From Sulfurirhabdus autotrophica (GTDB lineage: Bacteria; Pseudomonadota; Gammaproteobacteria; Burkholderiales; SMCO01), in assembly GCF_004346685.1 (NCBI RefSeq), contig NZ_SMCO01000029.1:1-33160 (forward strand): a stretch of 33,160 nt of DNA, read 5' to 3'. The translations under genes were made by a program, and so were the position numbers. Under the pieces are notes generated by a model, which worked only from the letters and a program-made list of their open reading frames with translations, ran no database searches and was not told where the DNA came from. Shown one piece after another: positions 2,536 through 10,215 of this stretch; the stretch's first letter is position 1, and each line of letters begins with the position of its first letter.

Positions 2536-5500
2536 TTACTCTTCTTTATCCGTTACTTCATCTGGCGTATTTTCAATGGCTTCATCATCAACATTGGGCG
2601 CTTTTGGTTTGGCCTTTGAAGGGGCGGCCTTTTTAGGTTGCATTTCAGCAGCCAGTATTTGTTCAGGCAATTGTTTTGCCTGGTCGGTTAATGGTTTGAG
2701 TGTTGGTAGTAAGTGTTTGAGCGCCTGGGCTGAAAGGGCGGATGTAAAGTGATATTGTGATGCATCAGCGCCAGGTATGAAGGCGGTTAGGGTGCCAAAG
2801 AAACGGTCACCAATAAAAAACACGAACGTAGCTGAACGATTGACCGAGCGAGAGTCTTTGATGACGCCAACTGATGAGAATGTTACGTAGCGATGATCTC
2901 CGGTACCGGTTTTACCGCCAATCGGAATTTGGGTGCCATCTTCTCTGACGATGGCGTGTGCAAGTCGGGAAGCGGTTCCCTTTTCTACCACATCAATAAT
3001 CGCAGCACGCACTTTTTCGGCAATTTCCGGGGCAAACAGTTGCACTGATTTGACAGGTGCTGGCTTGATGATGGTTTCAAATGGGGTGTCTTTGCCAAAA
3101 TGCATCTGTTCAATCAAAACGGTGGGCACTTTAGCCCCGTTGTTCAAAATGATTCCCATGAGTTCAGCGAGCGCGGCTGGCCTGTCTGCAGAGCTGCCAA
3201 TAGCGGTTGCCAGTGAAGGTACGAGTGAATCGAACGGATAGCCTAGTCGTTTCCAGCTTTTGTGAATTTCGAGGAAGGCTTCTACTTCAAGCAAGCTGCG
3301 GATACGGATATCCTGTGCGTTTTTGTGGCTGGTTTTGCGCAGCCAGTCATACACGGCAATACGCTCTTTGCTGCTGGCTTTGATCACATCGTTGTAGCCG
3401 CTTCCCGGATGTGAGACCAGATACTGAACCAGCCACAATTCCAATGGGTGAACGTGGGCAATATAACCTTGATCAGATAGTGAATATTTTCCTGGTGGGT
3501 AGCTGTCAAATAATCCTTGCAAGGTGCGTTTGCCAGATATTCGCTCACTTGGAAGGTGATCAGTCATGAACTTTTCATAAGCATCGAAGCCCGCGGCAGG
3601 GTAAATGTAGCGGAAGGCTGCCGATAGCCGACGTGGCGTAGGATGGATCTCTGCCAAAAAGGTGTTCATGACTTCTTCAACCGGCTTGCCTTTGTATTTC
3701 TGGTAGAAGCGGGCAATAAAAGCTTTTCCTTCCTTATCGGCAAAGCGATTCAGATATTCGGTGCGCTGAGGAGCATCAATGTCTTTCAGTACATTGGCAG
3801 TTGAGCCCGGTGTCTGGAATGTGTAGTAGCGCACGACATCCCGCATTAGTCGGATAAAAACCAGATTGACAGAATTACGGGTGGCTTCGCGCACGCTGAT
3901 GATCTTGCTGTCATCGTCATGTTTGAAATTGTTAAAGAATTGAGCGCCGCCCCCTGTGAAAAACTGTTCATGAGGGTTTGCAGAATATTTGCGCTCCATC
4001 GCTGCATCCAGCATGTTCGATAGAGACTTATCTTCATTTGTCAGGAGATAATCAATTGCCCAGCGCGTGATCACATCATTGGGCCCGACTGTTACTTCGC
4101 GTAATTCTTTGGGGTCTGAAGCAGCATATTTATCGTGCAGTGTTCCGACGATTTCCAGGTAAGTAACCAGGGTTCTCAATTTTGCTGTGGAACCTAAATC
4201 AAGTTTTGCCCCCTTATTAATATCAAAGGGCTGGTCAAAGTTATCTGCCTGTACGCGCAGTTTTGCCCCTTGAGGGGTCAGTTCGTAAAAAGTCAAGCTG
4301 TAAATAATCTTGCCTGGGTCGGCGCTTCCAAGTAACCGTTCGCCATAAAGCCCTGCATTACGTGCATATTCAGGATCATTGAATTTTTTTAGAATGGCTG
4401 TAACGTTTTTCTGAATGTTGCCATCCAAAGTACTGCGAACCGATAAATCCAGATGATCTAATTCGTACATGCGCGATAGCCCCAAAAGAGAAGCTAAACG
4501 AACCCGTACCGCGTTGGTTGCTTTAAGTATTGTGAAGTCATCGGTGGATTCAGAAGGGGCGCCCTTTGTAAAATGCAGCGGTGTTTTGATAGCGGCATTT
4601 TTCAGTGCCGGCGAAATGACACCTTCTTGAGCAAGCAAGCGGATGTGACTATTGGTAAGCGCCTCTAGAGCCTTGCGTTCTGAAACCAGATAACCGGATG
4701 GTCTGCGCTGGGCAATCATCAGGCTTAGCAAATGTTTATAAGCACTGGCAGTTTCATTCAGGTTGGCGTTATCAGATGGCCAGGCCTGTAAAAGTTGATT
4801 TACTTTCTTGAAATCCAGGCCATACCAAGCCCACAAGCCGTCACCAATACCGTTTACTTCACCAAATCCTGCTACACCAGCCAAAGGGACCGTATTTAGA
4901 TAATCAACCACGATGCGTTTGCGTGCGGGCATTGTCTGTTCACCATCAAGGTATGCCCGAACAGAAGCAGATGCCATTTGCTGGAGTTTGTCCTTTGCGG
5001 TCAGCGTTAAACCATCCGGTGAATGTCTGTATTTTTCAATTTGAGTCGCAAGAGTGCTTCCTCCTGGTACATCGTGTTCAGGGCGAATATATTGAATTGC
5101 CTTGTCGAGTACAGCGCGTGCCAATCGTTCCCACTCGATGGCCGGATTTTTCTTGGGTTGTGTCGGGTCAAGCAATTCGCGGTTTTCTATAAACAGCAGG
5201 CTTTGCGTGACAATAGGTGGAACGGTCTCGAAATTTGAGTAAATCCGATGCGGAAAAATTGCCTTATGCAGTGAATTGCCGTTGTCGTCAATAATGCTCA
5301 GACCAGCCTGGGTTTTTTCTTTGTAGGGCGCAAAAAGTCCCTCGTCGATCAGTTCCTGCATGCGGGGTGAAAGTCTGGCCTGAGCAGTCACCTGAAAACC
5401 CTCGCCGGCTAGTCTGGGAATCATGGCTTGTTCAAGGCTGTAACCCATCCTGATGTCGTATGGGCCCGCTTGTGGAATTTTAAAGTGTGGATTGGGACCG

Positions 5501-5691: not shown

Positions 5692-5878
5692 AGGAATAAT
5701 TCGTATCTTCTAGTTAAATCATGTTGAAATATGATAGCGCAATAGCCGTACTATGCCTAATATTTATGCTCAAAAACAACTAATTGAGCAATTCAAGTGA
5801 GGGCGATTGGCGTAAAACATAAATTATCAATTTTCATCTTCTATTTTAATTGTGCATGCTGCCAGATTGATCTTCTGC

Positions 5879-5923
5879 GGCCGGGGGTAGCCTGGCGGTT
5901 AGTTACTATTCTTGCTTCGCCAA
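5879..5923 (+). repeat. Truncated fragment of the multi-hairpin repeat
   Basis: Matches the first 45 or so bases of the repeat at 2146 and 6725 (terminal hairpin, CTAGT-like box and the start of the TTGCTT hairpin) and then stops. CCCGG has become CCTGG and other bases have drifted, as expected for a decaying remnant downstream of ccdB. Confidence 0.75.
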
Positions 5924-5959
5924 TGGTTGGTTGTTGAGCCTGCGGAAAGGTAACGCCTG

Positions 5960-6274
5960 TCAAATACCAGTAAATAATAAATCCAATGCTGCGATAATTT
6001 CATCGCGCTTTGTTTTCAGGGAAGTGACTTTGTCACCCAGTGAGCGATTGGCGATACCAGCCAGTTCGGCGGTGGACATCACGACTGCCGTGCCCCTGAT
6101 TGTGAATTTCGGATTGAGTTGTTTTGCTGCCGCCCCCATTTCTTTCACCATAACGAGTGGCACAACGACACGCGTCGCCAGCGTATCCAATAGTTCGGTT
6201 TGCACGTCCAGCAGATAAGGGATTATTTTGCGTGTGTCAGGGTTCGGATTAAGATAAACGTCGAACTGTGCCAT
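5960..6274 (-). CDS. ccdB: CcdB-family gyrase-poisoning toxin
   Basis: Toxin of 104 residues, the family's usual length. It is predicted to bind the GyrA subunit and trap DNA gyrase on cleaved DNA. Family features are the start AQFDVYLNPN, DVQTELLDTLATRVVVPL, and the C-terminal LLFTGI. The ATG at 6274 overlaps the antitoxin stop by one base (TGATG), so a TTG one codon earlier is not needed. The last three residues are TGI rather than the WGI of the F-plasmid protein, a variant also known in chromosomal homologues. Confidence 0.9.
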   Translation of the reverse strand: MAQFDVYLNPNPDTRKIIPYLLDVQTELLDTLATRVVVPLVMVKEMGAAAKQLNPKFTIRGTAVVMSTAELAGIANRSLGDKVTSLKTKRDEIIAALDLLFTGI

Positions 6275-6522
6275 CAAAACCGCCGTAAGCCGTCGCTGAA
6301 GGTGCCGCGCATTTCAATGCGGCGGTTGTATTCATCGAGTGCACTCTGATTTTCTGCCAGCCAGCGCTCACGTTGTGCTTGCCGCACGATCTCGGCCAGA
6401 TGTTGCTCAAGGGCTTGTGAGAGATTGATGTTGAGTTGTTTTGCTTGCTGCAAAAGATCGGCATTGATGCTGAGATTGGCTGACTTCTTCGGCGCAGATA
6501 AGTTGTAAACGGGATTGTTCAT
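6274..6522 (-). CDS. ccdA: CcdA-family antitoxin
   Basis: Antitoxin of 82 residues partnering the CcdB protein directly downstream. The N-terminal ribbon-helix-helix region (KKSANLSINADLLQQAKQL, about 12-30) would bind the operator. The C-terminal RRIEMRGTFSDGLRRF resembles the disordered CcdB-binding tail of CcdA. The ATG at 6522 follows an AAGGAT ribosome site. The pair sits in an apparently chromosomal setting between hairpin repeats, so it looks like a resident module rather than part of a plasmid. Confidence 0.9.
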   Translation of the reverse strand: MNNPVYNLSAPKKSANLSINADLLQQAKQLNINLSQALEQHLAEIVRQAQRERWLAENQSALDEYNRRIEMRGTFSDGLRRF

Positions 6523-6551
6523 GGTTGCATCCTTGGTGTTTCTATGCGCAT

Positions 6552-6591: not shown

Positions 6592-6720
6592 AATATTGCG
6601 TATTTGGAAATGCAAGATGTTACGGTAAGTGGCAGGATGGGTGGAACGTAGCGGTGCCCATCGAATGGCAATGTGAAGAACTAGACGTTCAGATTGCATT
6701 TGTTTCAGGTTTGGACTTAC
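6592..6720. other. Intergenic spacer, nothing recognised
   Basis: Between the ccdAB promoter and the composite hairpin element I see no gene or motif. The stretch 7206-7320 on the other side of the element is likewise without recognisable content. Confidence 0.5.
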
Positions 6721-7205
6721 GAGGCCGGGGGTAGCCCGGCGGCTAGTCACTTTTCTTGCTTCGCCAAGCAAAGTAACCAAAAGAAGGCGACGCCAACTGC
6801 GCCGTCCCTTCGGGATGCCTGAGGGTTACCGGATAAATCGGGCGGCAACGCGAACTCGCACGTAAACGTGCTCAGACAGGCGCTGCCTTCATCCCGATTT
6901 ACCCGGCAACCCTCAGCGGCGTAGATGGGGGTTCAAAGTCAAAGGCCACGCGCAAAGCGCGTGACGGGTGGCTGGCTGTGCCAGCTTAAATATCCCTTTG
7001 TTGCATCGCCTCGGTTTGGGTTTTGAATCGGGGAAAAGGCAAGTATGTCTGAGCACGTTTACGTGCGAGTTTACGCCGCCGCCCGATTCAAAAACCAAAC
7101 CGAGGGAACCCGCAGGGCGATGCAAGTAGGGTGCCCTTTTCTTTGGTTTCTTTTCTTTTGGGCAAACAAAAGAAAGATACTAGCCGTCGGGCTACCCCCG
7201 ACCTC
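6721..7205. repeat. Composite hairpin element with terminal inverted repeats
   Basis: Two opposed copies of the structured repeat. The forward copy is at about 6721-6930 and the reverse copy at about 6990-7205, joined by two further perfect hairpins (6947-6963 and 6971-6985). The ends GAGGCCGGGGGTAGCCCGGC and, inverted, GAGGTCGGGGGTAGCCCGAC give the whole 485 bases the shape of a non-autonomous mobile element. The main stems are 6819-6842 with 6893-6916 (two mismatches) and 7009-7032 with 7082-7105 (one mismatch). The apical motif GCACGTAAACGTGC occurs once in each copy. No flanking target duplication is obvious. Reading frames across it are spurious. Confidence 0.85.
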
Positions 7206-7320
7206 AGGTGCCAATATATTGCGAAGTCGGGCCATTTATCCATAAAATAAGTTGAAAATTTATTTTTGTTAATCATATCGATTCAATACTTTTCGATCTG
7301 CCATGCTCAATTATTCGCGT

Positions 7321-10215
7321 TCAGCTTCTTTCAAGATTCAGGACAAGCAAACGCCGCAAAATTTCCTCGTCTGGCATATCCGGCGTGTAGTCATTCCAGC
7401 CGTAGGCATGCGCTACCGCCCTATCCAGCGTTTTATGGACATTATCCAGCCACGCTGGACGTGCGTTGTAAAGATTGGTCAGGGTGCGCTTTTTCAGTTC
7501 CGCTTCAAAGCCAGTTTTGGCAATAATTCTGTCCGGGTATCCGGCAACTACTTCCGGCACGCGTTCTGTCCATTCCACAGGGTTGAGCCAGTTCTCACGC
7601 AGGGTGTTCAATTGCTGTGCGGCCTCGGCGATTTCAGCGGCGGAAGGGTTGGCGTAGTCCGATGGCACGAGGTTGGGTGTTAGTCCTGTAGGAAAGGGGA
7701 AGGTTTCAAAACACGATTTGGCATTGTAAGTGGGTGTTCCTCCATCGCCATGTATCGAAACTTGTGCCAATGCCCATGCTTCGTGAAAGCGCGAATGTAA
7801 AATTCCAAATGCAGTATCGTCAGATCGGCTGATAACATTTAAACGTGTATCTGGTAATACCACGATAGGAAGCCAAACAAAAATTCGATGCTTGGCGACG
7901 CGTGGGGTCACAATGAAGCGGGTAAGTCCTTTGAGGGCTTTTCTCATGGAGATGCGTGCTTCTTCGTGAATCCACCAGTTACGGCGAGTACGCTCTCGGT
8001 TGACTGTTTCGCGGTATGGTTTGACGTGCGTTAGCACATAAGTAAACGGTGTTTCATATAAAGCTGCATCGACCTCGGTCATGTCAGTGCCGAAATCTAT
8101 AATCCAAGTGTCAGAAGAGCGGCGAGCAATGTCCATACCATTCGCCCACGGGCGCACGACATCGCTGTTCGGTTTGCCGTTGGGGTTGGGCTGTTTCAGC
8201 CATTGCCGCGCCAGTTCGCCTGGAATATCAAAAGCGCCATATTTTTTGGTGCCTTCAAAAGTTGTATTTGTGTTTTCATTGAGTTGATTAGCTTGAGTGA
8301 GATCAAGGCCACTACCTGAAGTTAGGTCAGCATGAATAGCCTCGACAGGTTTTCCATCAAGTATTACCCCATTGCCTTGACCAAAACAAACCAGCGATAC
8401 GCGTACGGCTGCGCCTTCATTAATCCATTCTTCGTCTGACCATGCATTGAATATGCGAGTGGTGTCGCAAATGCGCGCCAGCACTTTCTGGTTTGAACCT
8501 TTGCGAATCGCTTGTGTGGTCACCAGTCCGGTACGATCACACTTCCCAATTTCAATCTGCGCACGTGCTTTTTCAAACCAGTAGGTCACCAAATCTGCCC
8601 CGCCCGGCACACGGCCTTTGTAAAGCATGCGCAGAGCTTCGATATAGCCATCACCCAGCTCGCCACGCATTTTTGATCCGCCCAAAAACGGCGGGTTGCC
8701 AATGATCGCATTCGCGGCTGGCCAAACCGCTTCAGCGCATGCTGAACTCTCCCCTTCTGTCCCTACGATGTTGCCATCCTCATCATGAACAGTGATATCG
8801 CTACCCAAAATAAGCTCCATCACTGCATCGCGGTTTTCAATATGGTCGAGCGGTTGCAGTATGGGGTTCTTGCGGATGGGATAGCCGTTTTTCAGCATCC
8901 ACTGGATTTCTCCGATCCAGACCGTTACGCGCGCCAGTTCGGCGGCGTAGGGGTTGAGTTCTATGCCCAGCACGTTTTCCGGCGATACTTCAATAAAGGC
9001 CTGGCGTTGCAAGCCCAGCACTTCGGCTTCCAGGTTGGCTTTGTGTTCGAGGTCTTTTAGCGTGCGCAGGGCAAGGTAGAGGAAGTTGCCGGAACCGCAA
9101 GCGGGGTCGAGTACGCGGAAGTTTTTGAGGCGTTCGAGATGACTATGAAACAATGCGCTGGCTTCCTGCAAGGCTTTTTGCGAGCCTTTACCGCCCTTTT
9201 GATACAGGGCCATGTGTTTACTGATCTGCGTTTTGGCGCTGTGCCATTCTGCGCTCAGGGGTTCAACGATTACGGGGTCGATAATGCGCTGGATGGATTG
9301 CGGGTCGGTGTAGTGTGCGCCAAGCTGGGAGCGCTTTTTGGGGTCGAGGCCGCGTTCGAACAAGGTGCCGAAGATGGAAGGTTCGATGCCGCTCCAATCC
9401 AGATTGGCTGCTGCGTGCAGGATTTTTATTTCCGGGATGGTGAGTGGCAGTACAGCGACATTTTCGAACAGGCCGCCGTTGAACCAGTTGATATCTTCCA
9501 GTGCAAAATCCCCGCCTTTACGCATAGCGGCAAACAACTCTTTAAGGCGGGTTGTGAGTTTGGCAGGGTCGGTTCGGCTCTTATCGAGCAAGCGTTCGAA
9601 TAGTTTTTCCGGCAATAGACCTGCATCTTCTGCGAACAGGCAAAACAGGCACTGGTTCAGGAAGTGCGCAACCTGTTGCGGTGAATGGCCTCTGGTGTTG
9701 AGTGATTGCGCAAGGTCAGCAAATTTGCCTGCGGCTTCCTCGGTGATTTGTGCAATGGTGCGGCCAGGGTGAAACTTGTCCGGCGTTTCAAACAACCAAT
9801 GCAACTTGGTGAGGTTTTCAGGCTGGTTTATGTTTTCCAGCGAAATGGTATGTACTTCAGAGGGGGCATTGGTAAAGTGGGTGTGGATTTCAATGATGTT
9901 GGTATCGCACACCACTAGCAGGGGCGGGTTATCCAGTGCCAGCGCGTAGGTCATCAGCTGTTTGAGCGCTTCCCCCAGGTTGCGTCTGGTTGCCTTGTAT
10001 TCAAAGGCAAAGAAGCCCTGTTTCCATACATCCGCCCAGCCTTGTCCTGCCCCGGTTCGGGTTGCGCCACGTTCGAAGCAGTAGGATTCGTGACTGGAAG
10101 GGGAAGGGGTAGGTACACCCAGTAATGCGCACAAATCAATAAAGTGCAGTTGGTAGCTGGCCCGTTCTTTGAGCGGGTTGTCTTTCCATTTTTCGATAAA
10201 GGCTTGGGGCGTCAT
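7321..10215 (-). CDS. MmeI-like type IIG/IIL restriction-modification enzyme
   Basis: Single polypeptide of 964 residues predicted to methylate adenine and to cut DNA at a distance from its site. The N-terminal nuclease has Asp62, Glu72 and Lys74 (WADV...FEYKA). This D-x9-ExK spacing is the same as I recall for MmeI (919 residues). A helical connector follows. The gamma-class methyltransferase has LGAHYT (298-303), motif I DPACGSGNF (370-378) and motif IV NPPF (507-510). The C-terminal half should hold the target-recognition domain. No separate specificity or nuclease gene is adjacent, as expected for this class. The reading frame is intact. A perfect inverted repeat abuts the ATG (10216-10261). 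Confidence 0.88.
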   Translation of the reverse strand: MTPQAFIEKWKDNPLKERASYQLHFIDLCALLGVPTPSPSSHESYCFERGATRTGAGQGWADVWKQGFFAFEYKATRRNLGEALKQLMTYALALDNPPLLVVCDTNIIEIHTHFTNAPSEVHTISLENINQPENLTKLHWLFETPDKFHPGRTIAQITEEAAGKFADLAQSLNTRGHSPQQVAHFLNQCLFCLFAEDAGLLPEKLFERLLDKSRTDPAKLTTRLKELFAAMRKGGDFALEDINWFNGGLFENVAVLPLTIPEIKILHAAANLDWSGIEPSIFGTLFERGLDPKKRSQLGAHYTDPQSIQRIIDPVIVEPLSAEWHSAKTQISKHMALYQKGGKGSQKALQEASALFHSHLERLKNFRVLDPACGSGNFLYLALRTLKDLEHKANLEAEVLGLQRQAFIEVSPENVLGIELNPYAAELARVTVWIGEIQWMLKNGYPIRKNPILQPLDHIENRDAVMELILGSDITVHDEDGNIVGTEGESSACAEAVWPAANAIIGNPPFLGGSKMRGELGDGYIEALRMLYKGRVPGGADLVTYWFEKARAQIEIGKCDRTGLVTTQAIRKGSNQKVLARICDTTRIFNAWSDEEWINEGAAVRVSLVCFGQGNGVILDGKPVEAIHADLTSGSGLDLTQANQLNENTNTTFEGTKKYGAFDIPGELARQWLKQPNPNGKPNSDVVRPWANGMDIARRSSDTWIIDFGTDMTEVDAALYETPFTYVLTHVKPYRETVNRERTRRNWWIHEEARISMRKALKGLTRFIVTPRVAKHRIFVWLPIVVLPDTRLNVISRSDDTAFGILHSRFHEAWALAQVSIHGDGGTPTYNAKSCFETFPFPTGLTPNLVPSDYANPSAAEIAEAAQQLNTLRENWLNPVEWTERVPEVVAGYPDRIIAKTGFEAELKKRTLTNLYNARPAWLDNVHKTLDRAVAHAYGWNDYTPDMPDEEILRRLLVLNLERS

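Follow-up and report, generated by a model that had tools for sequence, protein, structure and literature searches.

The element at positions 6721–7205 of the window (the whole 33,160-nucleotide stretch of Sulfurirhabdus autotrophica DNA analyzed here) is, as we read it, an empty copy of a two-armed gene-cassette family. What is new here is that in other genomes such arms enclose single, foreign-looking genes, which differ between bacteria at the same site. We regard this cassette architecture as probable, and the evidence for it is strongest in Thiobacillus. The full statement, that this is a two-armed gene-cassette family whose arms are mostly resident and whose cargo is exchanged mainly by homologous recombination, stands in our judgement evenly between acceptance and doubt. 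A search of the open-access literature found no description of the arm family, which is not proof of absence. The features of the window are as follows.

6721–7205: whole element, empty; two convergent arms and no cargo ORF (inverted pairs and profile matches)
6722–6973, + strand: left arm (profile match, profile positions 10–266)
6961–7206, − strand: right arm, inverted (profile match, profile positions 8–251)
6724–6740, + strand: stem a, GCCGG at 6724–6728 pairing with CCGGC at 6736–6740 (read from the sequence)
6732–6745, + strand: stem b, TAGC at 6732–6735 pairing with GCTA at 6742–6745 (read from the sequence)
6746–6777, + strand: stem c, the most conserved box, GTCACTTTTCTTG ... CAAGCAAAGTAAC (read from the sequence)
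6819–6916, + strand: left-arm main stem, 6819–6842 with 6893–6916; inner hairpin GCACGTAAACGTGC
7009–7105, − strand: right-arm main stem, 7009–7032 with 7082–7105, 96% complementary
2145–2377, + strand: solo arm, 85% identity to the left arm
5878–5923, + strand: arm remnant, the first 45 nt of an arm, adjoining the 3′ end of ccdB

Each arm of the element is about 245 nt long, within the 230–290 nt found across the family, in which every arm is built of several stems. The order from the outer end is the overlapping stems a and b, the highly conserved stem c and a small CCCTTCGGG-type hairpin; the inner part consists of the long main stem and an inner hairpin flanked by AACTCGC and GCTCAGACA. 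Stems a and b are interleaved in the order a-b-a′-b′, which makes them either a compact pseudoknot or alternative folds. In the window arm, the motif GTAG is internal to the first stem and does not form a head. The initial annotation had described a 485-base pair with terminal inverted repeats, and the inverted pairs 6721–6765/7161–7205 and 6836–6878/7046–7088 of the element are 80% and 91% complementary. The short stems named there can be read in the sequence, and the main arms of different sequence are real: the solo-arm main stem (2240–2263/2326–2349) is 100% complementary, next to the 96% of the right arm, and the left-arm main stem has two mismatches. A covariance model built on the arm's 5′ part has nine matches in the organism's own genome.

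The segment that follows stem c (window positions 6766–6789) is a mirror of the purine side of that stem, as in triplex-forming repeats. Four haplotypes of this mirror, pairing CAAGAAAA with AAAAGAAG, AAAAGAAA with AAAGAAAA, CAAAGAAA with AAAGAAAG and AAGAGAAA with AAAGAGAA, cover 88 of the 102 parsed alignment rows, and rarer haplotypes fit worse. A third-strand reading of the segment is seen in the four main haplotypes and was set aside as a general one. Two neighbors of the arms in the window are also of note. A CcdA/CcdB toxin-antitoxin pair (PF07362, PF01845) at 5878–6540 directly adjoins the arm remnant and may be former cargo. An MmeI-like restriction-modification protein (7321–10215, − strand) adjoins the element itself.

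The fold of the arms is strong and is kept while the sequence changes. The 484-nt element strand folds at −148.8 kcal/mol as DNA, compared with a mean of −85.6 (sd 5.3) for 100 shuffles (z −11.9), and the left arm alone, folded as RNA, has a z of −5.3. The claim of the initial annotation that stems change and keep pairing is borne out across the family by a partner-binding test and by double changes. For the former, 189 arms were collected from the organism's own genome, its relatives and a collection of genome contigs, and 123 were used, the remaining 66 being omitted because their inner boxes were not recognized. In this alignment-free comparison, binding between the two sides of a main stem averages −63.5 kcal/mol within a copy, versus −42.5 with partners taken from dissimilar copies; the own partner is better than all dissimilar ones in 88 of the 123 copies and within the best 5% in 103. 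Among 48 Thiobacillus arms, double changes occur at 16 of 57 predicted pairs; one pair, for example, is C-G in 27 arms and G-C in 19, and another is A-U in 28 and G-C in 20.

The 5′ segments of the arms, of which 117 distinct ones from many families were aligned, have double changes at 18 of 22 pairs. Their covariation score is 0.273, compared with a mean of 0.118 for shuffles, which ignore the relatedness of the copies; none of 500 shuffles reached it, and sliding the partners gave at most 0.110. The count of further pair types in the same segments is unexceptional, being matched by 48 of 500 shuffles. Double changes are found at all five pairs of stem a (helix 1; 69% of cells paired), all four pairs of stem b (helix 2; 73.5%) and nine of the 13 pairs of stem c (helices 3 and 4; 88.5% and 97.9%). 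The low pairing of stems a and b arises because some subfamilies lack stem a. As to whether the family is already catalogued, a point the initial annotation had raised, it lies outside Rfam at the gathering score, with no match in the window or 15 other loci; a permissive scan of 6600–7300 returned two matches, both far below that score.

The arm family is found well beyond this one genome. DNA matches occur in 20 of 60 relatives. The model of the 5′ part is matched by 38 of the 229 class genomes and 13 of the 200 phylum genomes scanned, the own genome being included in both counts. Two of the 13 come from another class and have weak E-values. A scan of the contig collection gave at least 119 stretches with matches, and Thiobacillus, Herbaspirillum, Pseudorhodoferax, Variovorax, Noviherbaspirillum, Deefgea and Crenobacter are among the matches listed. 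An arm profile built from the 123 arms has 304 matches in 182 of 186 loci. Phages and plasmids as carriers were considered and set aside: the window's left arm, the only query used and one that would miss divergent arms, matched none of 50,697 phage records and one of 72,556 plasmid records.

Neighboring arms less than 3 kb apart form 76 convergent, 22 divergent and 19 tandem pairs. The gap is shorter than 300 nt in all 22 divergent pairs, while cargo-sized gaps of 300–1600 nt are convergent in 26 of 31 cases, a count that omits L262, which duplicates L188, and nine Herbaspirillum pairs with arms that matched only partly. Convergence is found at 13 of 18 distinct cargo-sized sites when orthologous loci are merged by hand. 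The p-values for orientation are indicative only, since arm pairs were the reason for choosing many of the loci, and orthologous loci do not count as independent cases. Other arrangements occur as well. Pseudorhodoferax and Variovorax loci (L127, L079, L131, L147 and others), unlike those of Thiobacillus, have divergent, head-to-head arms with gaps below 300 nt and no cargo, and runs of tandem arms in one orientation are found in L265 (G068 C1:4650500–4657000; spacing about 370 nt) and L082. Outside the arms, L120, L161, L165, L199, L205 and L211 carry short palindromes of several types, and the same type tends to occur on both sides of a locus, so that in some loci the inverted symmetry reaches up to about 190 nt past the box.

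The interiors of cargo-sized pairs have the appearance of foreign genes. In the first set of loci, G+C is lower than in the flanks in 29 of 29 interiors, and an ORF of at least 100 codons is present in 26 of 29, a count that includes the doubtful L103 and in which L120, L183 and L209 were read separately. In a second set, mostly from outside the order, interior G+C is below the flanks in five of nine loci and above them in four. Only L280 of this set has a long, clear ORF (251 codons), the ORFs of L279 and L281 being 101 and 102 codons long. The cargo names obtained from Pfam are AbiU2 (L205), Exo_endo_phos (L121), Mrr (L253), macro (L250), methyltransferase (L251) and PH domain (L072). At the limits used, 13 of the 20 cargo proteins scanned have no Pfam family, and one more has a weak match only; there is no transposase among the named families. 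PADLOC gave two weak matches among 10 cargo proteins, and NCBIfam gave weak matches to a BRCT region for one of seven and none for the other six. For the many cargo ORFs without a family, the status of gene is taken from length, composition and, in one family only, conservation. A trailer motif matches at 14 or more of 18 letters on the 3′ side of the cargo in nine of 15 Thiobacillus loci and on the 5′ side in none of the 15; it was picked by eye from the loci counted, and a single cargo family accounts for four of the nine. From this motif the slot seems to have a polarity.

Sites that are orthologous by comparison of their flanks differ in content in seven groups. One of these, site A, adjoins a gene present in 60 of 61 genomes of the bacterial family and has arm pairs in twelve Thiobacillus loci. 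Four of these hold one and the same gene family; one locus each holds AbiU2, a 424-residue membrane protein, a 128-residue protein and a 249-residue protein; two interiors lack an ORF of 60 codons, and two slots are empty. The left flank is common to all twelve loci and the right flank is common within subgroups. In one such subgroup (L199, L205, L217 and L223) both flanks are common and there are four different contents: the 128-residue protein, AbiU2, the 249-residue protein and nothing. Three more genomes with the left gene of site A (L221, L226 and L229) have no arm motif there, and in L229 the element is absent and another gene is present. The other groups that differ in content are L204/L212, L113/L125, L116/L201/L207, L188/L253, L093/L254 and L092/L251 (with L088 on one side).

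Homology at these sites spans flank and arm on both sides and ends at the inner borders of the arms. Between L199 and L205 it ends at 2271 and restarts at 2776, the arms lying at 2009–2299 and 2775–3058; between L204 and L212 it ends at 2382 and restarts at 3123, with arms at 2069–2406 and 3121–3420. The loci compared include no clean empty site bearing a target duplication: L119 is a collapsed copy that retains some 85 nt of one arm and the outer tail of its partner, and L229 has the other gene. One cargo family could be followed through the Thiobacillus family, where it is present in seven of 117 genomes. Four of its seven copies are enclosed by arms at site A. Of the rest, one follows a lone left arm at another place (L305), one is beside an empty pair (L304) and one is armless (L306).

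Arms are 81.8% identical within a pair, 84.2% on the same side of the same site and 82.5% between different sites and genomes. Judged by these identities, arms do not follow their site. Homogenization of the two arms of a pair was considered and not seen, given the same-pair value. The identities fit recombination among arms, with the reservation that arms saturate near 82% identity, where mixing and old age look alike.

In the model we propose, two multi-helix arms of 230–290 nt would converge on a slot that is empty or, as a rule, holds a single gene whose G+C is usually below that of the surroundings. The arm pairs would mostly have been resident at their sites for a long time, the arms having been spread originally by a mover, none of which was found here. 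Cargo would then turn over mainly as incoming DNA with similar arms recombines homologously with the resident ones, the arms serving as the shared homology, and the fold would be kept since a single strand, RNA or DNA, does something. This route calls for no unknown enzyme and accounts for the fixed sites, the borders at the arms and the mixing of arms; exchange of cargo in this way we rate a little short of an even chance. Homologous recombination by itself leaves the conservation of the fold unexplained. An enzyme that reads folded arms would account for it, and none was found. A broader proposal, that unrecognized cassettes occur class-wide (Gammaproteobacteria in the GTDB sense), with inverted, covarying docking arms between which single foreign genes, some of them for defense (AbiU2, Mrr), are swapped by an arm-reading process, is possible and on balance somewhat doubtful.

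The arms could instead be the ends of a non-autonomous transposon or composite MITE, in which a transposase acting in trans reads the structured ends and moves arm, cargo and arm as a unit, the pattern of sites arising by insertion into hot spots. Inverted ends, many unrelated sites per genome and arms mixed across sites and genomes would all be expected of such an element. The initial annotation had put forward a REP-type Y1 transposase as the mover, and one RAYT is in fact present in the own genome (NF047646, 196 bits; L051, on G000 C8 near a contig end), with no element nearby, but at a locus that ends with the contig. Two further Y1 transposases of that genome are of the IS200 type by score. 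Among the relatives, a RAYT above the cut-off accompanies the element, being found in 10 of 20 genomes with it and five of 40 without it (p = 0.003). The association does not extend to the loci: of 21 RAYT loci inspected, 19 of them from element-bearing genomes, only L307 has the element in the fetched stretch, and on one side of the RAYT only. We therefore rejected RAYT as the mover, the element being absent near the other 20. At L307 (G024 C1:212776–213575) the element lies about 270 bp downstream of the RAYT gene, which has a short palindrome of its own on both sides; most printed RAYT flanks carry short palindromes of the usual GTAG REP kind. PF01797 has no match in three of eight element-bearing genomes, which are drafts. 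As no transposase is among the named cargo families and homology continues through the arms at common sites, we consider movement as a transposon rather unlikely.

Alternatively, palindrome-templated repair (quasi-palindrome correction), rather than selection on the fold, might have produced the paired changes. Almost every change replaces a whole pair, as such repair would give, and G-U accounts for few cells. However, the boxes and the layout of stems are kept across a class, and the two strands differ in their mismatches, an asymmetry not expected of strand-blind repair. In the 48 Thiobacillus arms, A-C occurs in 33 cells (22 pairs) and G-U in 11 (nine pairs) of 2688 cells, the constant U-G pair 157–185 being excluded, and in 87 of 123 copies the main stem is more stable when folded from its complementary strand. 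This asymmetry, which is indicative only since the copies are related, hints that the folded strand is the one read outward from the slot. Templated repair as the source of the paired changes is, in our view, fairly unlikely.

The same preference for the outward-read strand, together with the strong folds as DNA and RNA, would suit an ordinary structured intergenic repeat that acts on RNA, as a terminator or a stabilizer of 3′ ends, with genes lying between copies by chance. Chance gives neither the excess of convergent cargo-sized gaps, nor the low G+C of the interiors, nor swaps at the arm borders, and as an account of the whole pattern this explanation is strongly disfavored; an action on RNA may nevertheless be the present function of the arms.

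An integron integrase was likewise examined and rejected as the mover. IntI is above the cut-off in eight of nine cassette genomes and none of 14 control genomes, a striking result that weakens against the 60 relatives, where it is found in 13 of 20 with the element and 13 of 40 without it (p = 0.027); seven element genomes have no IntI, four of them assembled in one to three contigs. In two genomes that were read with IntI and the element 5–10 kb apart, L298 has no direct-repeat array and L299 has one attC-like site, away from the element. An account of the elements as integron cassettes in an atypical context, mobilized by IntI, is scarcely credible despite their low-G+C single genes and structured sites.

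Set beside known systems, the proposed cassettes come closest in concept to composite MITEs such as TIME-COMPs (PMC13367494, PMC10969869). In these, short non-autonomous repeats in direct or inverted orientation bound genes that are possibly mobilized, as here; TIMEs derive from Tn3-family transposons and occur predominantly in plasmids (PMC13367494). In contrast, the arms described here are nearly absent from plasmids as judged with the window's left arm as query (1/72,556 records), are much longer and fold into covarying stems. REPs, with their REPINs and RAYTs, are like the arms chromosomal, intergenic, palindromic and often in inverted pairs; in PMC2817692 they are some 20–35 nt long with a GT(A/G)G head, flank their rayt gene, and also have complementary mutations. 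The arms differ from them in measuring 230–290 nt, in enclosing cargo, in lying beside one of 21 RAYT genes and in having no GT(A/G)G head.

Integron gene cassettes are single, low-G+C, mostly unnamed genes whose adjoining sites keep their structure and vary in sequence, and in all of this they resemble the cargo and arms found here. They carry one attC per gene, whereas here two inverted arms make one slot per site, the array is absent and the integrase is inconsistent (13/20 versus 13/40 relatives). In the minimal mobile elements of Neisseria, variable genes are exchanged between conserved flanks by homologous recombination. Variable genes between conserved flanks are also what we propose; there the flanks are ordinary genes, whereas here they are inverted, folded repeats common to many sites.

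If the proposed cassette reading is true, a common repeat that passes for intergenic filler would mark slots at which single genes are traded with no visible transposase or integrase. The arms would then offer a sequence handle for tracing cargo genes, which are numerous, small and mostly without a name, and a case in which to test how a folded strand could guide gene exchange.
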